The notes: a model not told the origin generated them from the sequence alone. A stretch of 64,000 nt of DNA from Treponema sp. Marseille-Q3903 (GCF_014334335.1 NZ_JACSEU010000001.1:1178001-1242000); one strand, 5' to 3'; shown: positions 52,273 to 62,830, counted from the stretch's first letter. Translations and numbers: made by a program.

Positions 52273-53802
52273 ATGAAAACCATTGTAATTTTATACAGTC
52301 AAAAAACAGATTTTACAGATAAAAAAGAATTCGGCGGAAAAAGCGCTGTTCAACTTTGCTCGGAGAACATCGAAGTTTTAAATCTTCCGGTATTTACAAT
52401 TTGTGCAGAAAAGATAAAAACGCTCTGTTCTCTTTTGGGCGAAATAAAATTGCTCTGCGACAAGCAAAAAGCAAATTCTGTTGTTTTTTCTTTCGACGAC
52501 CTTCCTTTTTTTGATTCAAAACTCGCTGAAAAATTGATTGATTCTCACACAACTTACAAATCGGAATATACATTTGCCGACGGTTATCCGTACGGTTTTG
52601 CGCCGGAGTTGATAAACACAGGAACTGTCGGGATTCTTTTTCAACTCGCTTCAACAACTCAAAAAACGCTCGGAGATGCTCCGGTTTCTCGCAATTCAAT
52701 TTTCAATCTTATAAAGACAGATATAAATTCATTTGATGTAGAGACAGTTTTAGCAGACTCAGACTGGAGACTCTTGAGGCTCGCTTTTCACTGCGGCTCA
52801 AAAGATAACTTTATGCAGTGCAAGGCTCTTTTTGATGTAGGCGTTGAAAATGCAGATTCTGACAAAAAATCAGAAATTGCAAGTAAAACTATCGGCTGCT
52901 TAAAAACAGTTCCGTCATTTTATAATATTCAGATTTCAAATAAAACTTCATCGAAACCGATTTATCTTCCTGACTGGCAATTTGATACACAGGATTTTAT
53001 GCCGTATTCTCAGTTTTCAGATTTAGTTGACAGGATTGCAGATTTTAGTCAGAAGGCTGTGATAAGTCTTTCAGCTTGGGGAGACCCGCTTTACAACAGC
53101 GAAATCTTAAAAATGATAGAAAAAATTTTGTCACACGACGGACTTTCAGTTTTCATTGAAACTAGCGGTCTTCTTGTCGATGAAAACTTTTGTGCCAAAA
53201 TTAAAGATATTTTTGTCTCCGCAAAAGAAAGGATAAACGGCTGGCAAAAAATCATGATAGCTGTTTCTCTCGATTCGTTTACAGCTCAAACTTATATGAC
53301 GATTCATCGCAATTCTTCAGAAGATGCATTTGACAGCGCTGTGAAAGCAGTCGGTTTGCTTTCAAAATCGCTCCCGGGCTGCGTATATCCTCAATTTGTC
53401 AGAATCAATCAAAACGAAGCTGAACTTGAAAACTTTTTTCGCTATTGGACTGAAAAATCAAACTGCTCGGAAGGAAATCTCATAATTCAAAAATATGATG
53501 ATTTTGCAGGCGAACTCCCTCCTTTTAAACCGGCTGACCTCTCTCCTGTTGAACGATATCAATGCTGGCACTTGCGCCGCGATATGATAATCCTTGCAGA
53601 TGGAAATGTGCCTGTTTGCCGCGCGGTGATGAACTGTGCAAATGGAAAATCTTGTAAAAGCGAATTCTCTTTAGGAAATGTTTTTGAACAATCATTGGAA
53701 AAAATCTGGCATAAATCTGACGATATTCTGACGGCGCATATCGAGAAAAAATACAACAAAAAGTGTGGAAAATGTGATGAATGGTATACCTACAACTTTT
53801 AA
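52273..53802 (+). CDS. Spirochaete-type SPASM protein without radical-SAM cysteines
   Basis: 509 residues from ATG 52273. The first 230 residues resemble a nucleotidyltransferase-like domain (FDDLPFFDSKLAEKLIDSH, YPYGFAPELI). A middle part resembles a radical-SAM barrel (LSLSAWGDPLYN-like block, VFIETSGLL), but the CxxxCxxC motif that binds the reactive 4Fe-4S cluster is missing; the matching stretch (PIYLPDWQFDTQDF) has no cysteine. The C terminus has a cysteine-rich SPASM domain (CWHLRRD, VPVCRAVMNC, CGKCDEW). I recall a spirochaete-specific family of this kind. Longer starts (52255, 52183) are in frame. Function unknown; first gene of the glycan-type operon. Confidence 0.75.
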   Translation: MKTIVILYSQKTDFTDKKEFGGKSAVQLCSENIEVLNLPVFTICAEKIKTLCSLLGEIKLLCDKQKANSVVFSFDDLPFFDSKLAEKLIDSHTTYKSEYTFADGYPYGFAPELINTGTVGILFQLASTTQKTLGDAPVSRNSIFNLIKTDINSFDVETVLADSDWRLLRLAFHCGSKDNFMQCKALFDVGVENADSDKKSEIASKTIGCLKTVPSFYNIQISNKTSSKPIYLPDWQFDTQDFMPYSQFSDLVDRIADFSQKAVISLSAWGDPLYNSEILKMIEKILSHDGLSVFIETSGLLVDENFCAKIKDIFVSAKERINGWQKIMIAVSLDSFTAQTYMTIHRNSSEDAFDSAVKAVGLLSKSLPGCVYPQFVRINQNEAELENFFRYWTEKSNCSEGNLIIQKYDDFAGELPPFKPADLSPVERYQCWHLRRDMIILADGNVPVCRAVMNCANGKSCKSEFSLGNVFEQSLEKIWHKSDDILTAHIEKKYNKKCGKCDEWYTYNF

Positions 53803-54739
53803 TGAACATCAGATAAATTGCACAATTCTTGGCGGAAGAGAAAAAAAATCTGAAAATGTCTTGAACATCTCTGTGATTCTTTTGAACAGCAGCGGAAGCC
53901 ATTATAAACTTCACGTGTTTGAAAAGCTGCTCGAAACGAATTTTAAATCTATCATATCTGTAGAACACAATGCTGAAAATTTTACAGATGATATATCAAA
54001 AAAATATCCGGAGATAAAATTTATTGTTCCGCAGGAAAATGCAAACGATGGAGAACTCATAAATCTTGCAATCAGCGAAATCAGCTCCGAATATGTCCTT
54101 GTTCTTAGAGATACATTAAATATAGACTCAAATTTCATCCTACCACATCTTGCAGAATCTCTTACAAAAGATAAAACTTTTTGCATTGTCCCGCGACTTT
54201 TTGATGCTTTCAAAAACGGCATCTCATGTACTTTTAATCCAAGCGTACGGAAATCTCATTTCATTGTTGAATCTTCCACTGCAATGACTGACGGAATTAA
54301 AACTCTCTATCCGTTTGATTCAATTGCCTTATACAATAGAGAAAAGTTTATACAGCTGGGAGGTTTTGATTGGACAATAACTTCTCAGTACTGGCAAACT
54401 CTTGACCTTGCCTTGCGCTCATGGCTTTGGGGCGAGCAGACAAAAGTCACTTCATTTTTGCAATTCTCTTACATAAAAGAACCTCCTGTAGAAGATCACA
54501 CTTATAACATCGATTATTTAAGATATTATTTAAAAAATGAACTTCCTAAAATTAAAATAGAGCAGGGATACATAAAAAAATCATCTTTTTTTACTTTTTT
54601 GCATCATTCTTCTTGTGGAGTTCTAGAAGCATTCAAGCAATTTAAAGAAGCTCGCATTTGGGTAGAAAAAAACAAATTCAGATTCAAGACAGATTTACAA
54701 AACCTCGTTCATAATTGGAGTAAAGATGAAAACAAATAG
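53777..54739 (+). CDS. Glycosyltransferase family 2-like protein
   Basis: About 320 residues. The pattern of ISVILLNSSGS near the N terminus, a central LVLRDTLNIDSNF (in place of the DxD loop) and FIQLGGFDWTITSQYWQTLDLALRSW fits a GT-A glycosyltransferase; the metal-binding DxD is not obvious. Acceptor and donor are unknown. It starts inside the SPASM gene (ATG 53777, or GTG 53765) and ends inside the next gene (14-base overlap), so translation is coupled along the operon. Confidence 0.65.
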   Translation: MNGIPTTFNEHQINCTILGGREKKSENVLNISVILLNSSGSHYKLHVFEKLLETNFKSIISVEHNAENFTDDISKKYPEIKFIVPQENANDGELINLAISEISSEYVLVLRDTLNIDSNFILPHLAESLTKDKTFCIVPRLFDAFKNGISCTFNPSVRKSHFIVESSTAMTDGIKTLYPFDSIALYNREKFIQLGGFDWTITSQYWQTLDLALRSWLWGEQTKVTSFLQFSYIKEPPVEDHTYNIDYLRYYLKNELPKIKIEQGYIKKSSFFTFLHHSSCGVLEAFKQFKEARIWVEKNKFRFKTDLQNLVHNWSKDENK

Positions 54740-57191
54740 GACTGTCATAGTGCAATGCAGATTATCATCGACAAGACTTCAGGGAAAAGCTCTTAAGATT
54801 CTCGGTGATAAAACTATTTTTGAATGGGTGCTCGCTTCAATGAAAAAAGTTCGCGCTGATTCGTATTATGTCGCAACAGACGAGGACTCTTATGAAAAAT
54901 TAGCCCCATTGTGTAAAAAAGCAGGTTTTCATTGCTTTAAGGGCAGCCTTGAAGATGTCTTAAAGAGATTTGCAGATTTGCTTGATACAATAAAAACTAA
55001 AACCGTGATTCGTGCGACGGCAGACAATCCTTTTTTGTTTTACGAAGCAGCGGAAGAATCTGTCGAACTTTTTGAAGAAAAAAATAAGGGAAAATCTCAC
55101 TGCGATTACCTTACGTACAAAGGTCTTCCTCATGGAAGCGGAGTAGAAATATTTTCTGCCGACTCAATAAAAAAAGCGGCAAAGGAGACAGACAACCCTT
55201 ACGACCACGAACATGTAGGTCCTGCTCTTTACAATCACAGAGATAAATATATATGTGAATTTGTTGAAGCTCCACGCCGTTTTAGACATCCTGAACTTCG
55301 CACGACGATAGATACATATTCTGATTATATTCATGCCATTTCAATCGTAAAATATGTTGGGCTTAAATCTGAACCTTATACGACAGAGCAAATTATAGAA
55401 GCGTGCAAGTCGAACAGTGTAAAATATCCTGTAGTTTTAGTGCCGTCTGTAGTAAAAGGTCACGGGACAGGTCACCTCAGAAGGTGTTTAGGCGCTGCGA
55501 TAAAAAATAATTTTTTTGTATATATCCCGCAAGATAAAACTCTCTCTGAAACAGATAAAATCGTAGAAGAATATTTAGAAAAAGGATTAGATTCAAACCA
55601 GATAATCACATCGCTACCTGATAAAACTTTTCCACCTATAATGATAACAGATACTTTTGAACTCACTCAAAAACAGCTCAAAGAGTTTTCAGAAAATAAA
55701 AGTTTGATTTCCATAGACGAAAGTTCATCTTATTCTGATTATTGCGACTATCTTTTAGACATAATTCCTTCATATAACTGCCTGAGAAAAGCTAACAGAT
55801 TTGACACAAGCTTTATCACAAAACCTGCCAAAGTAAAACAAGAGAAATGCAACTCAGTAAAAAATATTTTGATATGTCTAGGCGGAGAAGATCCTGCCGG
55901 GTTTACAATTCCAGCCTCTAAAGCTTTTACCAAATCATTTCCTCAATCTAAAATCACAGCTATCGTTTCTGGCAATGAAAATTCTTATGAAAAATGTTTT
56001 AGTGAATCAGAGAAGAAAAATATCGAGATTGTAAAACCAATTCCAAATTTGCGCGACAATCTTTATAAATATGATTTAGTCGTAACTCATTACGGGCTTA
56101 CAGCTTTTGAATCTGTTTATGCAGGCTGCGGCGTAATTTTGTTGCCCACAACAAAACTCCATAAAAAACTTGCAGAAAAATATGATTTTGCATTTATCGG
56201 AGATGAAAAAATTACAGAAGATGCGGTGAAAAAAGTGTTCAATTCAGAAAACCTTTATCCGAAACTTAATATCAAAGGTGATTCTCTTTCGCTCGGAGAT
56301 TTTCTTAAAGATATTTCAAAGGGAACTAGAATCGAGTGCCCTGTCTGTGGAAAAAAAGCTTCAAAACTTAGTCCTGTCGTTGCAAGAAATGAAAAACGCA
56401 CTTACCGCCGCTGTGCAGAGTGTGGGATGATTTATCTTTCGTACTCAATCGATGAAGAGAAAAAATATCAAAAATCATATTTTTTTGAAGACTATAAAAA
56501 ACAATACGGTAAAACCTATAAGGAAGATTTTCAATCTATAAAAAAACAAGGGCTGCGCCGAATAGGAATCATAAAAAGTATTGAAAAAGATCTCAAAGAT
56601 AAAACGATTCTAGATATTGGCTGTGCATACGGACCATTCCTTTCTGCAGCTTTAGACAGCAAGATGATCCCTTTTGGAACAGATATTTCATCAGAGGCAA
56701 TAGACTACGTTCAATCGGAATTAAAAATCCCGGCTGCCTGCTCTGCCTATCCTGATATCAACGTTGCTGAGGAATTTGGAATTGCCCAGTTTGACGTTTT
56801 AACAATGTGGTATGTAATCGAACATTTTAAAGACTTGGACAGTGTCTTGAGAAAAACAAGTTCAATAGTCCGCAAAAACGGAATATTTGCTTTTTCAACT
56901 CCATCCGGCGAAGGTGTATCTGCAAAAAGCGATAAGGATAACTTCTTTGAAATAAGTCCGTCAGATCATTATACTGTCTGGGAACCGTCACGATGCGGTT
57001 CAATTTTGAAAAAATACGGATTCAAAATCGAAAAAATAGTTTCAACAGGTCATCACCCGGAGCGTTTCCCTTCAATCAAAAAAAGCGGAGCAAAACCGGG
57101 AAGTTTGCAGTGGAAGATGATTGAAAACATCAGCCACATAAATAAACTCGGTGATACAGTAGAAATTTATTGCAAAAGGGTTGGAAAATAA
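54726..57191 (+). CDS. SpsF-SpsG-methyltransferase triple fusion
   Basis: 821 residues in three parts. Residues 1-235: SpsF-type cytidylyltransferase (VQCRLSSTRLQGKAL, ATADNPFL). Residues 236-525: SpsG/PseG-like nucleotide-sugar glycosyl hydrolase or transferase (GHGTGHLRRC, ICLGGEDPAGF, THYGLTAFESVYAGC). Residues 535-821: a four-cysteine zinc ribbon (CPVCGKK, CAECGM) with a class I SAM methyltransferase (ILDIGCAYGPF near 622-632). In sialic or pseudaminic acid-like pathways SpsF and SpsG are separate. The fusion suggests it makes and methylates an activated acidic sugar (inference). It overlaps the glycosyltransferase by 14 bases; the next gene starts right after its stop. Confidence 0.82.
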   Translation: MKTNRTVIVQCRLSSTRLQGKALKILGDKTIFEWVLASMKKVRADSYYVATDEDSYEKLAPLCKKAGFHCFKGSLEDVLKRFADLLDTIKTKTVIRATADNPFLFYEAAEESVELFEEKNKGKSHCDYLTYKGLPHGSGVEIFSADSIKKAAKETDNPYDHEHVGPALYNHRDKYICEFVEAPRRFRHPELRTTIDTYSDYIHAISIVKYVGLKSEPYTTEQIIEACKSNSVKYPVVLVPSVVKGHGTGHLRRCLGAAIKNNFFVYIPQDKTLSETDKIVEEYLEKGLDSNQIITSLPDKTFPPIMITDTFELTQKQLKEFSENKSLISIDESSSYSDYCDYLLDIIPSYNCLRKANRFDTSFITKPAKVKQEKCNSVKNILICLGGEDPAGFTIPASKAFTKSFPQSKITAIVSGNENSYEKCFSESEKKNIEIVKPIPNLRDNLYKYDLVVTHYGLTAFESVYAGCGVILLPTTKLHKKLAEKYDFAFIGDEKITEDAVKKVFNSENLYPKLNIKGDSLSLGDFLKDISKGTRIECPVCGKKASKLSPVVARNEKRTYRRCAECGMIYLSYSIDEEKKYQKSYFFEDYKKQYGKTYKEDFQSIKKQGLRRIGIIKSIEKDLKDKTILDIGCAYGPFLSAALDSKMIPFGTDISSEAIDYVQSELKIPAACSAYPDINVAEEFGIAQFDVLTMWYVIEHFKDLDSVLRKTSSIVRKNGIFAFSTPSGEGVSAKSDKDNFFEISPSDHYTVWEPSRCGSILKKYGFKIEKIVSTGHHPERFPSIKKSGAKPGSLQWKMIENISHINKLGDTVEIYCKRVGK

Positions 57192-58826
57192 ATGAACATT
57201 CTTATACTCGGTGCAGGTTTGATGCAAAGACCGGCAATATTGAGCGCAAAAAAAATGGGATACACAGTTCACGTTGTCGACGCAGATTCTGACGCAGTTG
57301 CAATTCCATGTGCAGACATATTTAAAAAAATAGATTTAAAAGATAAAGACTCAATCCTCAAATACGCCGATTTTTTGAAGAAAAGCGAAGGCGGTCTTGC
57401 TGCTGTTTTTACAGCTGGAACAGATTTTTCTTCAAGCGTAAGCTACGTTTGCGAAAAACTAGGTTTAAACTCACACAGCTTTGAAGCGGCAGTGAATGCA
57501 AGCGTAAAAACTCAGATGCGTGAATGTTTTGAAAAACAGGGAATCCCATCTCCGAAATTTTTAAAAGCTTCAAAAGGCGATGTAAATGAATTGTTTGTTG
57601 AAAAAGTTTGTGGAAAGCTCTCGTTTCCGATTGTCGTAAAACCTGTAGACAATATGGGAGCTCGAGGCTGCCGCATGGTTCGCTCAAAAAAAGAATTTCT
57701 TCCTGCGCTGAAAATAGCAACAGAATGTTCTAGAACGGGATTTGCGATTGTAGAAGAATTTATGGACGGCGCTGAATTTTCTATCGATGCACTTGTTTAT
57801 AAAGGAACTTTTACAGTTACAGGGTTTGCAATCAGGCATATAAAATATGAACCGTATTTCATTGAAGTCGGACACACGATGCCAGCCGGAGAAAAAGATA
57901 TCACTCAAAAAATGCATGACGAACTTATTTCCGTATTTGCACTTGGGGCAAAATCTCTAGGACTTTCCTGTGGAGCTGCAAAGGCTGATATCAAGTATAC
58001 AAAAAACGGTCCGATGATAGGAGAAATCGCAGGTCGCCTTTCAGGTGGCTATATGTCGGGCTGGACTTATCCTTATGCTTCCGATTTAAATCTGACAGAA
58101 CAAGCTCTGCAAATTGCATGCAATAAAGAACCAGTAGATTTGGTTTCGCTCAGAAAACACGTTGAGTATGTTCCACCTGAAAGCTGCAAAAGTCATTCAA
58201 AACCATACGAACTATACGAAGTTCCTTGCAAACGCACTTCGGCAGAACGCGCATGGCTCAGTATACCGGGGACTGTAAAATATATAGAAAACATAACAGA
58301 ATACACAGATAAAGCAATTTTTGATATTTTGCCACGTTCTGTTGTAAAAATTGGTTCTGATGTAGATTTCCCAAGAAACAATGTTGAAAAATGCGGAAAT
58401 ATAATTGCAGTGAGCAATCAGCGCGATGTTGCAACAAGCGCCGCAGAAGACGCTGTTTCAAATATTTTTATAACTCTTGAACCGAACAACAAAAAAACAG
58501 ATGATTATTTAAAGTATTCCGAAGCGGAATATGAAGCAGCTTTTCCTCCATCTGCATTTGGAAAACTCTCGGCTGAAGAGATTGACCAGCTCTCAGGGAC
58601 AATTCCTGCAAACTCAAAAGTGTCCGACGAAATTCCTGAAGTTTTAAAAAAATCAAAATATAAAAATCTGTGCGACTGGAATTACAATACAATAGAAAAA
58701 ACAACTTTGAAGTTCGATATTCTTCGTGCAAAACATCCAAAGCTCGATGCAAAAAAATTTTGGACAGCGCTTATGCGCGGCGGAATTCAGGCAGCTGTAT
58801 ATATTTGTGATTCGGAGACAAAATGA
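57192..58826 (+). CDS. ATP-grasp ligase with extra C-terminal domain
   Basis: 544 residues. Residues 1-300 are a carbamoyl-phosphate-synthetase-like ATP-grasp enzyme: GAGLMQRPAILSAKKMG nucleotide-fold start, VKPVDNMGARGC glycine loop, EEFMDGAEFSIDALV, and GEIAGRLSGGYMSGW metal-binding end. Residues 340-544 are an unassigned domain. Such ligases join a carboxylate to an amine or similar group; here a sugar acid or wall peptide is plausible from context only. No spare base separates it from the fusion gene, and the next ATG overlaps its stop (ATGA). Confidence 0.8.
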   Translation: MNILILGAGLMQRPAILSAKKMGYTVHVVDADSDAVAIPCADIFKKIDLKDKDSILKYADFLKKSEGGLAAVFTAGTDFSSSVSYVCEKLGLNSHSFEAAVNASVKTQMRECFEKQGIPSPKFLKASKGDVNELFVEKVCGKLSFPIVVKPVDNMGARGCRMVRSKKEFLPALKIATECSRTGFAIVEEFMDGAEFSIDALVYKGTFTVTGFAIRHIKYEPYFIEVGHTMPAGEKDITQKMHDELISVFALGAKSLGLSCGAAKADIKYTKNGPMIGEIAGRLSGGYMSGWTYPYASDLNLTEQALQIACNKEPVDLVSLRKHVEYVPPESCKSHSKPYELYEVPCKRTSAERAWLSIPGTVKYIENITEYTDKAIFDILPRSVVKIGSDVDFPRNNVEKCGNIIAVSNQRDVATSAAEDAVSNIFITLEPNNKKTDDYLKYSEAEYEAAFPPSAFGKLSAEEIDQLSGTIPANSKVSDEIPEVLKKSKYKNLCDWNYNTIEKTTLKFDILRAKHPKLDAKKFWTALMRGGIQAAVYICDSETK

Positions 58827-59848
58827 AACGACTTATATCATTTTTTATTTTTTTACTTTCAGCGATAAACTTTTTTGCCGCAACAGATATTTCTCTTTTA
58901 GATAAAGGTGAGAAATCAGGGATGACAATCTATTGGGATCCTCTTTCGGAAAGCGGAATGATAGAAAAAAACGGACATCAGCTTTTATTCAGAAAAGGAG
59001 AACAGATAGTCCTTTTGGACAGCATGAAGATGATGGTGACAGATGCCCCCGAACTTCGCGACAATAAAATATTCGTTTCAAAAAAGTTTCTCGATGATTC
59101 TGAAGAATTTTTTAATCAAAAGTCGGAACTGCCATTTAAAGTCGGCGCAATTTTAATCGATGCAGGACACGGCGGAAAAGATCCTGGAGCTTTGAAAGCT
59201 TATAAAATAGGCGGAAAGACAATCACCATAAAAGAAAAAGATATAAATTTAAAAGTCGCAAAACTTCTCGGAGAGAGGCTTCAGTCAAGTTATCCGCAAA
59301 AACAGATAATTTTAACGCGCAATTCCGATGTTTTTTTGTCTCTTGGAGAGCGCACTGACATCGCAAACAACGTAAAAGTCGGGGAAAACGAAGCTGTTTT
59401 GTTTATTTCAATTCACGTAAATTCTTCGTTGAACAAAAATTCATCTGGTTATGAAGTGTGGTACCTATCGCCCGGATATCGCAGAACTGTTTTAGATAAA
59501 TCTACAGTTTCCGATGACAAAAACTTGTTCCCAATATTAAACTCAATGCTCGAAGAAGAATATACAACTGAAAGCATCATGATTGCAAAGTTTATCATGG
59601 ACGGATTACAAGCTCAGATAGGAAAAGAATCGACAGCTCGCGGCATCAAAGCGGAGGAATGGTTCGTAGTGAGGAATTCAAACATGCCGAGCGTTTTGAT
59701 AGAACTCGGGTTTGTTTCAAACGAAAAAGAAGCGCTTCTTTTAAATGATGAAAAATACTTGAAAAAGGCGGCGCTTGGAATATATAATGGAATCGTAGCG
59801 TTTATCACACACTTTGAACGTTCTCAAGGGTTTACTTCAATAAAATGA
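58823..59848 (+). CDS. N-acetylmuramoyl-L-alanine amidase (AmiC-type)
   Basis: Exported zinc amidase that cuts the peptide from MurNAc in peptidoglycan. 341 residues: signal peptide (LISFFIFLLSAINFFAA), an N-terminal AMIN-like part, and an Amidase_3 domain with zinc ligands H116 (DAGHGG), E138 and H198 (ISIHVNSS), and the catalytic Glu in VLIELGFVSN. The LytM-like proteins at 20.7 and 25.7 kb could be its activators. I recall an amidase near flaA in T. pallidum too. The ATG overlaps the ligase stop. Confidence 0.93.
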   Translation: MKRLISFFIFLLSAINFFAATDISLLDKGEKSGMTIYWDPLSESGMIEKNGHQLLFRKGEQIVLLDSMKMMVTDAPELRDNKIFVSKKFLDDSEEFFNQKSELPFKVGAILIDAGHGGKDPGALKAYKIGGKTITIKEKDINLKVAKLLGERLQSSYPQKQIILTRNSDVFLSLGERTDIANNVKVGENEAVLFISIHVNSSLNKNSSGYEVWYLSPGYRRTVLDKSTVSDDKNLFPILNSMLEEEYTTESIMIAKFIMDGLQAQIGKESTARGIKAEEWFVVRNSNMPSVLIELGFVSNEKEALLLNDEKYLKKAALGIYNGIVAFITHFERSQGFTSIK

Positions 59849-60327
59849 TTTTATCAAACATAAAAAACAATATGACTTGCAAAGAAAATTTTTCAAAAAC
59901 AATAATTTTTTCATTAATTATACTTGTTTTTATAATTTCTTCTTTCACGTTTTTAATAAAAAGAAAGGGGACACGGTATACTTTTGTATTTCCTTCTGCA
60001 AACAATGGAAAATACATAATAGAAGCGAGAAGACTTACAAAGCAAAAAAACAAAGATAATGTCAATATATATGCAGATGAAATTCTACTCGGCTCGACAT
60101 TAGAACGTACAAAACTCTTATTTACATCTGGCACAAAGTTGATTTCATGTTTTCAACGTGGCAAAGTGCTTTACTTAAACCTTTCAGCGAAATCGCTTCA
60201 GATGGGGGAAGGAGTGATAGAACTTAAAGAAGGCGTTGAATTATTAAAGAAAAATATAAAAAGAAACTTTAAAGACATTGATGTAGTTGAGGTTTTTATC
60301 AATGGGAAACTCGCTTTTGAAAAATAA
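59845..60327 (+). CDS. Membrane-anchored GerMN-domain protein
   Basis: 160 residues: a membrane helix (TIIFSLIILVFIISSFTFL, about residues 20-38), then a GerMN (sporulation/spore germination) domain: IYADEILLGSTLERTKLLF, a VLYLNLSAKSL strand, EGVELLKKNIKRNFKDIDVVEVFINGK ending. The domain is commonly found next to amidases in spirochaetes and Firmicutes; its role is thought to be wall binding. Last gene of the operon; it overlaps the amidase by four bases. Confidence 0.8.
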   Translation: MILSNIKNNMTCKENFSKTIIFSLIILVFIISSFTFLIKRKGTRYTFVFPSANNGKYIIEARRLTKQKNKDNVNIYADEILLGSTLERTKLLFTSGTKLISCFQRGKVLYLNLSAKSLQMGEGVIELKEGVELLKKNIKRNFKDIDVVEVFINGKLAFEK

Positions 60328-60332
60328 AAGCG

Positions 60333-60361
60333 TTGACAAAACGATGTAGTTATTAGATAAT
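60333..60361 (+). promoter_or_regulatory. Sigma-70-type promoter of flaA
   Basis: Perfect TTGACA and GATAAT with a 17-base spacer. The predicted start is near 60368, giving a leader of about 43 bases that ends in AAAGGAG before the ATG. Confidence 0.85.
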
Positions 60362-60410: not shown

Positions 60411-61478
60411 ATGAAGAAGACTTTGGGTTTATTTGCAGCTGCTATGCTGCTTGTTGGTGGCGTTGCTTTCGCTGAAGAAGCTATGCTCATCGATTTTACA
60501 CTTCTGGATGCTGACTGCTGCGAAGATGACAATGGCAACAAAACTCAGAATAGCCATACAGTAATGGACTATTCAGTTAGTGCAGGTGCTACTTTCACAG
60601 AAGATCAGAAGAACCTGATGAAAACATCATTGGCTCTTCCAGAATGGGAAGTTAAGTTGAACTCTTCTGCAAAAACAGTTGGAAGTTTGGCTGATTCGAC
60701 AATAGTTGCTGCACCTGTAAAAGGTGAAGCTGACGTTCCGTTCGCAGGAAAAAATGTGATGGGTGTTCGTGTTGTTTTCCCAACATGGAATTCTAACGCA
60801 AATGCTCGTATCGAACCTCCATTTGTTATCCCTGCTTATGAACCGTTGGCAACTGCTGACGAAAACGGTAACCGTCAGAAACAGACAGATGAAGAAAAAG
60901 CAAGCGGTAAGACTCTTTTTGAAGGTGGTTACGGACTTGTAAAAAATGTTGGAACATTAAAAGCTGTTTCTGTAACAACAATGGGAATGAACTATCCTCA
61001 TGGACTTTATGTTCTTATCTCTGACACTGACGATGTTGAACGACGTTATTTCATGGGATTCCTTGAATTCGATGGTTGGAAATCACTTCGCTGGAACAAT
61101 CCACAGTACATTTCTGAAATCCGCAACCGCGAAATTCGTGTTTACCCGATTTATCCACGCGGAATGCCATTTGTTAAGTTTAAGGGTTTCCAGATCACAC
61201 GAGATGCATCACACATCGGTGGAGATTTCATCGGTTACTTCAAAGATGTAAAAATCATATATGATAAAGCACTTCTTACAAGCGATCGTGACATCGATGA
61301 TGAAGATATTTGGGGAATCATCGCTAAAAAAGAAGATGCTCGCCAGAATGCAGAAATGCAGAGATTCGGTAACAAACAGGTTAACCGTTATCTCGAACGT
61401 GTAAAACTTGCTAAAGAAGATGAATTTACTTCAAGCTTAAAAGAAAATTCTAATTCTAACGCACAGGTTTCTGAGTAA
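60411..61478 (+). CDS. flaA: Flagellar filament outer layer (sheath) protein FlaA
   Basis: Structural protein that coats the FlaB core of spirochaete periplasmic flagella. 355 residues with a signal peptide (LGLFAAAMLLVGGVAFAEEA) and the conserved FlaA body: VVFPTWNSNANARIEPPFVIPAYE, GVGLVKNVG-like block, MGMNYPHGLYVLI, and KFKGFQITRDASHIGGDFIGYFKDVKIIYDK. A strong promoter, ribosome site AAAGGAG and a terminator make it a single-gene transcription unit. Confidence 0.97.
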   Translation: MKKTLGLFAAAMLLVGGVAFAEEAMLIDFTLLDADCCEDDNGNKTQNSHTVMDYSVSAGATFTEDQKNLMKTSLALPEWEVKLNSSAKTVGSLADSTIVAAPVKGEADVPFAGKNVMGVRVVFPTWNSNANARIEPPFVIPAYEPLATADENGNRQKQTDEEKASGKTLFEGGYGLVKNVGTLKAVSVTTMGMNYPHGLYVLISDTDDVERRYFMGFLEFDGWKSLRWNNPQYISEIRNREIRVYPIYPRGMPFVKFKGFQITRDASHIGGDFIGYFKDVKIIYDKALLTSDRDIDDEDIWGIIAKKEDARQNAEMQRFGNKQVNRYLERVKLAKEDEFTSSLKENSNSNAQVSE

Positions 61479-61582: not shown

Positions 61583-62830
61583 ATGGATACAACAACTTTA
61601 ATTTCAAAAAAACAGCTTAAAGAAAATTATGAATCATATTCAAGTTATTTTACAGATATAATGAATGGTATAGTTGAAATTTTGCAAGACAAAATAAAAC
61701 TTTCAACTCAGCCAACATATAAAAGTCGTGTAAAAAGCTTTAACAGTTATTATAAAAAAATATTGCGGTTAAAATCCGACCAGATTGAAAAAAATGAATT
61801 GCTGATTTACCTTTCAGACATGATGGGAATCCGCATGATTTGCGCATTCCTTGAAGATATAAACATAGGTCTTGAACAGATAAAAAAAGTATTCGAAATA
61901 GAAGAAGTTGAAATAAAAGGTGCCGAAAAAAAATTCAGCGAATTCGGATATGAATCAATTCACGTTTTAATAAAAATTCCAAAAGAATTAAAAAGCAAAA
62001 TCGATAGCAAATATAAAGGGCTTCCGTCAATTTCCGACCAACTTGTTTGTGAAATTCAGATACGAACAATTCTTCAAGATGCATGGGCAGAAGTCGAGCA
62101 TGAATTGATTTACAAGACAGAATTCAATCCTTTTGATATTCCTCTCCGACGAAAACTTGCATCGATAAACGCTTCATTGACTTTGGCAGATATAACATTT
62201 CAGGAAATACGCGATTATCAGAATAAGCTACAGAGAGAACTTGATGAGCGACGCCGTTCCTTTTACAACATTGCAGATGGCTTTTTGAATGAGAAAAAAG
62301 AACGACTTGATGAAAATATTTCGAGAGTAACCCCTTACGTTCAGGGGACAATAGACGATCTGCTTTTAAGGGCGATACAAGCTCATAACGAAGGACATCT
62401 ATTTGAAGCTGTCGAAATCTATACTCGTATTATTGACGTAGTTCCTAAAAGCGATAAAAACATCCTTGCTGTCATCACAAAACATCGCGGTATGGCATAT
62501 TTTGCTATGAATAAACTCGACGAAGCGCTTGCTGATTTTGAGGAGAGCATCAAAAATGATCCAACTGCGTTCCGTTCTTATTATTACAAGGGAATTGTCT
62601 ATTCAATCATGAAAAAATATGATCAAGCGATTGAATGCTACAACAAATCTCTTGAAATAAATGATTTTCAGGCTCATACGCATTTCAGGCGTGCAATTGC
62701 GTGGTACGAAAAAGGCGAGTATGAAAAATCGATGAATGACCTTGATGTATCTATTAAACTTGGAATTGATACTGATGAATGCAAAACACTTCAAGATAAA
62801 CTTGTCAAAAAGTTCGGTATGAATATGTAA
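61583..62830 (+). CDS. RelA/SpoT-domain (p)ppGpp synthetase fused to TPR repeats
   Basis: 415 residues. Residues 20-230 are a single RelA/SpoT synthetase domain with SRVKS (R49, K51), SDMMGIRM (D79, R84), FGYESIH (Y123, H127) and CEIQIRT...VEHE (E157, Q159, R161, H173), so the catalytic set looks complete. There is no HD hydrolase domain and no TGS/ACT region, so it is a small alarmone synthetase. Residues 250-415 are about four TPR repeats. It would make (p)ppGpp under control of a protein partner (inference). It has its own leaderless-type promoter after the flaA terminator. Confidence 0.9.
   Translation: MDTTTLISKKQLKENYESYSSYFTDIMNGIVEILQDKIKLSTQPTYKSRVKSFNSYYKKILRLKSDQIEKNELLIYLSDMMGIRMICAFLEDINIGLEQIKKVFEIEEVEIKGAEKKFSEFGYESIHVLIKIPKELKSKIDSKYKGLPSISDQLVCEIQIRTILQDAWAEVEHELIYKTEFNPFDIPLRRKLASINASLTLADITFQEIRDYQNKLQRELDERRRSFYNIADGFLNEKKERLDENISRVTPYVQGTIDDLLLRAIQAHNEGHLFEAVEIYTRIIDVVPKSDKNILAVITKHRGMAYFAMNKLDEALADFEESIKNDPTAFRSYYYKGIVYSIMKKYDQAIECYNKSLEINDFQAHTHFRRAIAWYEKGEYEKSMNDLDVSIKLGIDTDECKTLQDKLVKKFGMNM

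Follow-up and report, generated by a model that had tools for sequence, protein, structure and literature searches.

A six-gene overlapping operon upstream of flaA in Treponema sp. Marseille-Q3903: two interleaved modules and a probable route to a flagellin nonulosonic acid

Organization of the locus

The DNA considered here is a 64-kb stretch (G000:C1:1178001-1242000, hereafter the window) of the 2.5 Mb genome of Treponema sp. Marseille-Q3903, for which Treponema bryantii and uncultured Treponema were the nearest named relatives in the relatives search. A six-gene operon of overlapping or abutting genes at 52273-60327, with flaA next to it, had been described in the initial annotation and was confirmed: six open frames on the + strand encode a spiroSPASM protein, a glycosyltransferase-like protein (GT), a fusion of SpsF-like, SpsG-like and methyltransferase domains, an ATP-grasp ligase, an amidase and a GerM-like protein (Table 1). 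The successive overlaps are 26, 14, 0, 4 and 4 nucleotides (nt), with 83 bases before flaA. As judged from sequence comparison, the operon appears to hold two interleaved modules, namely a nonulosonic-acid (NulO) module of spiroSPASM, the fusion and the ATP-grasp ligase, and a wall module of GT, amidase and GerM. The former probably makes the cytidine monophosphate (CMP)-activated, acylated and methylated pseudaminic-type sugar of FlaB flagellin, the wall module being separate from this task.

The mechanically called open frame of spiroSPASM begins at TTG 52183 and that of GT at GTG 53765, the starts favoured by relatives being ATG 52273 and ATG 53777, respectively. The promoter-like site 5' of flaA was called from its consensus match alone, at a level at which 36 such sites were found in the window and 28.9 expected, and another 11/12 site lies inside the amidase gene; having such a site of its own, flaA is probably a neighbour with its own transcription unit rather than the terminal operon gene.

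Table 1. Features of the operon and of its downstream border (positions in the window).
Feature	Position	Strand	Remarks
spiroSPASM	52273..53802	+	TIGR04321 503.9 bits, cut-off 250; NulO module (predicted)
Dual-coding overlap, spiroSPASM 3' end / GT 5' end	53777..53802	+	26 nt
GT, family-2-like glycosyltransferase	53777..54739	+	wall module by phylogenetic profile
SpsF-SpsG-methyltransferase fusion	54726..57191	+	14 nt overlap with GT
SpsF/NeuA-like CMP-sugar-acid cytidylyltransferase domain of the fusion	54726..55415	+	residues 1-230; NulO module (predicted)
SpsG/PseG-like UDP-sugar hydrolase domain of the fusion	55416..56360	+	NulO module (predicted)
Class I S-adenosylmethionine methyltransferase domain of the fusion	56361..57191	+	N-terminal CxxC...CxxC; NulO module (predicted)
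ATP-grasp carboxylate-amine ligase, L-amino-acid-ligase type	57192..58826	+	abuts the fusion, zero gap; NulO module (predicted) from profile and class-wide linkage
N-acetylmuramoyl-L-alanine amidase	58823..59848	+	N-terminal Cu_amine_oxidN1 domain; 4 nt overlap with ATP-grasp; wall module (predicted)
GerM-like small envelope protein	59845..60327	+	4 nt overlap with amidase; wall module (predicted)
Promoter-like site 5' of flaA, TTGACA-17-GATAAT	60333..60361	+	11/12 consensus matches
flaA, flagellar sheath protein	60411..61478	+	PF04620 253.4 bits

Domain composition of the encoded proteins

The SpsF-like domain of the fusion protein is matched by CTP_transf_3 (PF02348) with 103.3 bits against a cut-off of 22.6 and by the solved cytidylyltransferase PDB 6oew (8.6e-32), and its residues R12, S15, R17, K21 and D100 are invariant in the 19 sequences compared, as are G247, G249, H250 and R253 of the SpsG-like domain, for which the PseG model TIGR03590 gives 48 bits, below its cut-off of 153.6. 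The methyltransferase domain matches Methyltransf_23 (PF13489, 59.8 bits) and has UbiG and the sugar methyltransferase TcaB9 among its solved relatives; the borders between the three domains are cuts chosen in this analysis. The ATP-grasp protein is matched by ATP-grasp_4 (47.3 bits), its profile aligns with PDB 4dim (2.2e-35) and with the L-amino acid ligase PDB 3vot (8.9e-32 over 62-377), and K150, E188, E278, R282 and other residues are invariant in 26/26 sequences, so that the joining of a carboxylate to an amine, as in L-amino acid ligases, is a plausible activity. A relative of this protein is fused to LAL_C2 and a flavin mononucleotide (FMN)-dependent (2-hydroxyacid) dehydrogenase domain in two wider-phylum genomes scanned (L084:8921-11074, L086:8413-10659), which is a possible clue to the ligated acid.

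Among the remaining products, the amidase is well matched by Amidase_3 (PF01520, 165.5 bits), and the GerM label rests on relatives, since the Germane profile PF10646 matches 25 of the 26 aligned family members at E <= 0.1 (best 7.7e-13) and gives no match on the window's own protein. The label of glycosyltransferase is likewise weak, with PF00535 found in 6/31 members (best E 2.4e-4) and at 0.046 in the protein of the window.

The first gene product belongs to the NCBIfam family TIGR04321, the name of which gives no function, and no mention of the term spiroSPASM was found in the literature searched. In Pfam, the SPASM domain lies above its cut-off, and Radical_SAM, of the radical S-adenosylmethionine (SAM) enzymes, reaches 26.9 bits against a cut-off of 29.5, starting only at profile position 23. 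The CX3CX2C motif for the [4Fe-4S] cluster is not present in the window protein, which has T, P and L at the three cysteine columns and CCCC at the four SPASM columns; all three radical-SAM cysteines are also missing in the spiroSPASM of the genomes that are provisionally labelled 'T. denticola-like' (Treponema denticola; genus g2) and 'T. pallidum-like' (Treponema pallidum; g3). Among 131 homologues, a number in which the overlap of the two locus sets described below counts some genomes twice, 40 have the full set of these cysteines, 22 have part of it and 69 have none (91/131 altered), the four SPASM cysteines tested being kept in 129. On a quick tree of 60 of the 131 sequences the state changes at least nine times, in a direction that the tree does not give. 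The N-terminus aligns with the SpsF domain of the neighbouring fusion (hhalign Prob 93.9, E 1.6e-7, 217 columns) and with the solved cytidylyltransferase 6oew (E 3.5e-4), NTP_transf_3 and CTP_transf_3 being detected in 10/31 and 2/31 members, respectively, and the body resembles BtrN (2.5e-12). The spiroSPASM protein is therefore predicted to consist of a degenerate SpsF-like domain placed on a radical-SAM fold with a SPASM domain; for TIGR04321, the relation of the N-terminus to SpsF and the recurrent changes at the SAM cysteines are described here. An active radical-SAM enzyme is untenable for the window protein with its T, P and L, the motif being kept in the 40 homologues mentioned, and the loss of the cysteines in so many others suggests that the conserved role is independent of the SAM cluster.

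Conservation of the gene order

The gene order was followed in two sets of loci, of which set 1 comprises 40 loci (L009-L048) of relatives at the level of family, order or class, and set 2 comprises 80 named loci kept of 530 relatives, many of them on short contigs and some from genomes in common with set 1. Besides the source genome, its class has 46 genomes in which spiroSPASM was matched; the loci of 45 were read, the weak match of G239 being left out, and the counts of set 1 cover 40 of these 45. The order spiroSPASM-GT-SpsF-SpsG-methyltransferase is kept in all 40 loci of set 1, and the scattering of the genes in most relatives, named in the initial annotation as the refuting result of such a search, did not occur. 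In 34 of the 40 the order runs unbroken through ATP-grasp, amidase and GerM to flaA, with a median GerM-flaA gap of 83 nt in the set; one locus is cut by a contig end, and five break past the methyltransferase, namely three T. denticola-like loci, the T. pallidum-like one and that of G138, which belongs to a different family. Set 2 has the full order to flaA in 59 of its 80 loci, the other 21 showing parts, with contig ends and true breaks mixed and a few mis-scored where spiroSPASM lies off the contig. The T. denticola-like genomes carry SPASM-GT-fusion (L027, L029, L031, L213, L214), and so does the T. pallidum-like genome (1,139,633 bases), in which amidase-GerM-flaA lies about 36 kb away (L218:15979-18653). 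The overlap of spiroSPASM and GT is exactly 26 nt in 38/40 loci of set 1 and in all 71 readable loci of the 80 of set 2; since the end of the spiroSPASM gene also encodes the start of GT, this fixed overlap alone could hold the two genes together. The cluster is real and ancient, and its order, being conserved across the class, is more than chance.

SpsF and SpsG are fused in 27/28 loci of the own family and are separate genes in the 12/12 loci of set 1 beyond it, and wherever both were read in the two sets, SpsG and the methyltransferase lie in one frame (120/120 loci). The non-fused locus of the own family (L026:11040-13507, G246) has the fusion gene split over two overlapping frames, perhaps by a draft-assembly error. 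Full-length three-part fusion frames occur also beyond the class (e.g., G001, G015, G038, G053, G060). Among 20 wider-phylum loci, spiroSPASM adjoins SpsF in 15 and has no other cluster genes beside it in five (L049, L050, L051, L058, L062); amidase-GerM-flaA is kept behind in three (L056, L064, L068). The sole locus from a scan of viral contigs is an IMG/VR contig (L195), the end of which carries spiroSPASM and GT and may be host DNA adjoining a prophage. Directly past flaA in the window, at 61583-62830, a protein with a RelA/SpoT domain and tetratricopeptide repeats is encoded, and the same neighbour is present in most same-family loci that reach flaA.

Distribution over Spirochaetota and separation of the two modules

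Each part was searched in the same 247 Spirochaetota genomes, with matches taken at E <= 0.001. The spiroSPASM protein was matched in 222 genomes (201 above the family cut-off), the fusion protein in 224 (many of them single domains), ATP-grasp in 226 (some weakly), the sugar-acid synthase NeuB in 224, PF01973 (Maf family) in 224 and Flagellin_N in 240. PF01973 is missing in exactly 23 genomes, which belong to the families f6 (16), f9 (2) and f12 (5), three of them deduced from absence among the hit rows; f6 is provisionally called 'Borrelia-like', on a basis that includes its GT-amidase-GerM-flaA neighbourhood followed by apparent chemotaxis genes. All 16 f6 genomes contain flagellin and are without match for NeuB, Maf, spiroSPASM, fusion and ATP-grasp, and the seven f9 and f12 genomes are flagellin-less, with the NulO module absent or weakly matched; no genome of the 23 has spiroSPASM above the cut-off, the one weak match (3e-5) being that of G239. 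Conversely, of the 224 genomes with PF01973, 221 have a spiroSPASM match, 218 have NeuB and 215 have all four, including flagellin, the nine exceptions being drafts of 54-84% completeness (Fisher p = 1.8e-29, kinship ignored). The module thus co-occurs with the Maf family and flagellin and, as compared with the Borrelia-like family, with NeuB too.

The wall genes follow another pattern. GT was matched in 16/16 f6, 2/2 f9 and 4/5 f12 genomes, all without the NulO module, the matches beyond the class being at 9e-21 or weaker. Among nine f6/f9/f12 loci read, which gave no match to spiroSPASM, SpsF, SpsG or the ATP-grasp gene, four of f6 (L200-L203) have the order GT-amidase-GerM-flaA, two of f9 (L204-L205), from genomes without a flagellin match, have GT-amidase-GerM with no flaA alongside, and in the three of f12 GT lies beside the amidase in L206 and L207 (placed there by profile search) and alone in L208. 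Since GT, amidase and GerM persist adjacent without them, the sugar-acid genes constitute a module that can be removed, lying within or next to a wall module of greater age. The membership of GT, amidase and GerM in the sugar pathway, as initially annotated, is not supported in view of this persistence, which includes two genomes without a flagellin hit. For the same reason a whole-operon pathway was dropped as the principal explanation, and GT was dropped as the flagellin transferase, PF01973 being missing where the NulO module is missing and GT being still there. Such a GT-amidase-GerM operon, devoid of sugar-acid genes and retained even in the absence of flagella, represents an uncharacterised wall module of spirochetes. 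The f6 and f9 GTs, which have no spiroSPASM before them, are matched by the model only from position 17-23 onwards, as though they lacked the overprinted N-terminus.

On the acceptor side, the glycan motifs VEVSQL and DRIAS were named for T. denticola in the consulted part of PMC7431986. Of the four Flagellin_N matches in the source genome two were read, and both retain the two serines; among 13 cluster-positive flagellins, the first and the second serine are each kept in 11, Glu and Asp standing in place of both in 9/9 f6 flagellins; the 13 and the nine were hand-picked from several hundred matches. The serine substitution in Borrelia burgdorferi had already been noted in PMC7431986, so that what is new here is the coupling of acceptor-serine loss to pathway loss. 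On glycosylation of Borrelia flagellin, nothing decisive was found in the literature searched.

Putative route to the flagellin nonulosonic acid

The partners that such a route would require are found at the family level in the source genome. NeuB (366 amino acids) is matched by PF03102 with 189.7 bits (cut-off 22.1) and lies below the PseI and NeuB_NnaB equivalog cut-offs; a PseB-like and a PseC-like gene are adjacent (L080; Polysacc_synt_2 361.5 bits, DegT 318.5 bits), with the best equivalogs at 167 bits against 408 for PseB and 331 against 424 for PseC. The uridine diphosphate (UDP)-sugar hydrolase (PseG/SpsG) and the CMP synthetase (PseF/SpsF) are both present as domains of the fusion, the former below the PseG cut-off, and no PseH of the source genome reaches its cut-off (best 50.7 bits against 93.1). 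Four PF01973 matches lie above the cut-off, and for two of them, which are adjacent, the sole NCBIfam match is the flagellin modification protein PseD (30.1 and 57.6 bits, cut-off 670), PF01973 being broader than Maf.

The favoured route could then begin with the PseB-like dehydratase and the PseC-like aminotransferase, encoded elsewhere, which would give a UDP-4-amino-4,6-dideoxy sugar, to the amine of which a small carboxylic acid would be coupled by the ATP-grasp ligase, substituting for the acetyltransferase PseH. The methyltransferase domain would O-methylate the acyl part and the SpsG domain would take off UDP, after which NeuB, also encoded elsewhere, may form the nine-carbon acid with phosphoenolpyruvate, the SpsF domain may convert it to the CMP-sugar, and a Maf-type transferase from elsewhere in the genome may move the NulO onto the serines of FlaB. 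The substrates, the order of the steps, the identity of the acyl group and the flagellin target are all inferred. With no PseH above its cut-off and ATP-grasp proposed instead, a variant of the known flagellin NulO pathway is suggested, in which the swap of a ligase for an acetyltransferase is plausible. The pathway of a sugar-acid conjugate, as conceived in the initial annotation, is thus retained in its activated acidic sugar, methyl group, ligase and aim at flagella, and is given up for GT, amidase and GerM.

The part of spiroSPASM in this route can be proposed only tentatively: it would be a new kind of enzyme part, a dead SpsF-like cytidylyltransferase joined to a radical-SAM/SPASM body that repeatedly lost its SAM cluster and retained the auxiliary SPASM cluster, and might act as an iron-sulphur partner or gatekeeper of flagellin CMP-nonulosonate synthesis and, together with ATP-grasp in place of PseH, define a spirochete-specific route. 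We know of no parallel for such a gatekeeper.

Comparison with known systems

According to a 2017 study of Kurniyati, the T. denticola glycan is reportedly a monoacetylated pseudaminic-type acid with 2-methoxy-4,5,6-trihydroxyhexanoyl at N7. With this acyl identity, the monoacetyl-pseudaminic acid residue (274.116) and 2-methoxy-4,5,6-trihydroxyhexanoyl (176.068) sum to 450.185; a search of the literature for the 2-methoxy-trihydroxyhexanoyl wording gave nothing relevant. The structure calls for what the NulO module would offer, namely enzymes to activate the sugar with CMP and to release UDP, a ligase that forms amides and a methyltransferase, and the already described T. denticola flagellin glycan is probably the product of the module. 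In the available excerpts, the FlaBs of T. denticola carry a 450.2 Da glycan that is essential for filament assembly and motility (PMC9481697) and that depends on PseI TDE0960 (PMC9862357). The two systems share a treponeme flagellin O-glycan needing a NeuB-family synthase, and the g2 genomes carry SPASM-GT-fusion; however, PseI is the only gene named for T. denticola in those excerpts, whereas the cluster of the window adds candidates for activation, methylation and acylation.

An experimental precedent is the flagellin of Shewanella oneidensis, which, as described in the consulted part of PMC3765264, bears a 274 Da NulO and an O-methylated moiety of 236-264 Da, its mass being altered by deletion of sfmD (methyltransferase) or sfmE (ATP-grasp). 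There, in sfmABCDE, a SAM methyltransferase and an ATP-grasp_4 protein are encoded in one operon and both are needed for the full flagellin mass; in the window, the methyltransferase domain adjoins the ATP-grasp_4 gene, and flagellin would be the target. The sfm operon differs by a PseI-like protein, a thiamine pyrophosphate enzyme and a reductase, with no SpsF-SpsG fusion or spiroSPASM described in that part of the source, and by the second moiety (236-264 Da versus about 176 Da for the treponeme); it is compared here by the families described for its proteins. The legionaminic acid pathway sps of Bacillus subtilis shares the SpsG and SpsF roles in a scheme of six enzymes and UDP-linked precursors, but serves the spore surface with separate genes, has the putative acetyltransferase SpsD for ATP-grasp and, in the consulted text, names no methyltransferase (PMC7439481). 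In the Clostridioides difficile type B flagellin locus, an ATP-grasp carboxylate-amine ligase is likewise predicted, but the FemAB-like, ornithine cyclodeaminase-like and FdtB-like genes listed in the same excerpt are not those of the window (PMC5207246). Putative glycans between flagellar core and sheath were mentioned for Leptospira in the part consulted of PMC13144727.

Thus, the earlier statement that no described system has this gene set holds in so far as the set was not found in the literature searched, but the product is probably a known glycan of T. denticola and the logic of methyltransferase plus ATP-grasp is known from Shewanella sfmDE.

Evidence against the proposed route and alternative explanations

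Several observations weigh against a flagellin NulO pathway of this composition. NeuB and the PseB-, PseC- and PseG-like proteins all lie below the NCBIfam equivalog cut-offs, so that pseudaminic, legionaminic and other nonulosonic acids are indistinguishable, and the NulO could also be put on other molecules; one or both serines are lost in some cluster-positive flagellins (L186, L191, L215). Allowing for kinship leaves the co-occurrence weak, the losses amounting to no more than two or three events (f6; f9/f12). Within the seven flagellin-less genomes, NeuB is above the Pfam cut-off in six, weakly in five (1e-6 to 1e-13) and strongly in G226 (1.4e-58), ATP-grasp is weakly matched in four (6.5e-10 to 1.8e-4), and leftover weak matches exist for spiroSPASM (G239, as above) and the fusion (G234, 3e-4). 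Among 14 control genomes, TIGR04321 was matched at E <= 0.001 in ten and above the cut-off in none, which means that the 21 weak matches of spiroSPASM may include other radical-SAM proteins; nine of the controls matched NeuB, and PF01973, which is not Maf-specific, gave four control hits, all in archaea. Two genomes (G167 and G204, 85% and 73% complete) have spiroSPASM without an ATP-grasp match, and several others have it weakly. In all six loci read from the T. denticola-like group (L081-L083) and the wider phylum (L084-L086), the ATP-grasp gene is not linked to the cluster and lies elsewhere, and in G138 it accompanies amidase-GerM-flaA; a methyltransferase encoded on its own is frequent beyond the class. 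In the accessible parts of the cited sources, FlaA is also counted as glycosylated (PMC9862357), and deletion of sfmD in Shewanella abolished the entire mass shift, not that of the methyl alone (PMC3765264).

Some of these points would fit another scheme, in which the CMP-NulO supplied for flagellin by SpsF and SpsG is a plain one and ATP-grasp and the methyltransferase act on a dipeptide, a cofactor or the like, being kept by linkage. The unlinked ATP-grasp genes of the six loci, with the FMN-dependent dehydrogenase fusion in two of the wider-phylum ones, the amino-acid and related ligases among the solved ATP-grasp relatives and the separate methyltransferase beyond the class all speak for it. 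Nevertheless, this scheme is unlikely, as the methyltransferase is in frame with SpsG in each of the 120 loci of the two sets in which both were read, 16/16 f6 genomes give no ATP-grasp match, and sfmD and sfmE, as described in part in PMC3765264, are direct precedents.

The joint action of all six genes in one pathway, building a sugar-acid conjugate on peptidoglycan or envelope with GT as the transferase and amidase and GerM as wall-side partners, would account for the tight overlaps, the class-wide order and the fixed 26-nt overlap of GT and spiroSPASM, and also for GT staying by spiroSPASM where amidase, GerM and flaA are not adjacent (L027-L029, L031). It is improbable, however, given the adjacent GT-amidase-GerM without sugar-acid genes in the Borrelia-like (L200-L203) and flagellin-less (L204-L205) loci and the distance of about 36 kb in the T. 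pallidum-like genome, and the 26-nt overlap could by itself keep spiroSPASM and GT joined even if they had no function in common.

That the target of the NulO module is a polysaccharide or lipid of the surface, as in a lipopolysaccharide (LPS)-, capsule- or lipid-linked glycan, with an indirect flagellar link, is improbable, as T. pallidum is not known to have LPS and the T. pallidum-like genome retains SPASM-GT-fusion, and as the seven flagellin-less f9/f12 genomes are without a PF01973 match and without spiroSPASM above the cut-off. The expression of NulOs in Leptospira (PMC3438082, in part) and of legionaminic acid on B. subtilis spores (PMC7439481, in part), and the two or more NeuB matches in many of the 247 genomes, speak for a surface target, while, according to the title of Wyss 1998, the flagellins of T. 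pallidum, not the sheath proteins, are glycosylated.

Significance for spirochete flagella

Besides PseI, the genes which build or decorate the T. denticola flagellin glycan were not found named in the literature searched, and the locus gives a short list of enzymes for them, the fusion and spiroSPASM being present also in the T. pallidum-like genome. If the tentative role of spiroSPASM is true, a route to N-acylated and O-methylated pseudaminic acid would extend from Treponema to Leptospira-like and Brachyspira-like organisms (names inferred) and would have disappeared in one piece from the Borrelia-like family. The locus is also a warning that two separable modules can share one conserved operon of overlapping genes. 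The Borrelia-like family may be used as a natural experiment, in which the pathway, the transferase and both acceptor serines are gone together, with acidic residues in their place in the nine flagellins read.

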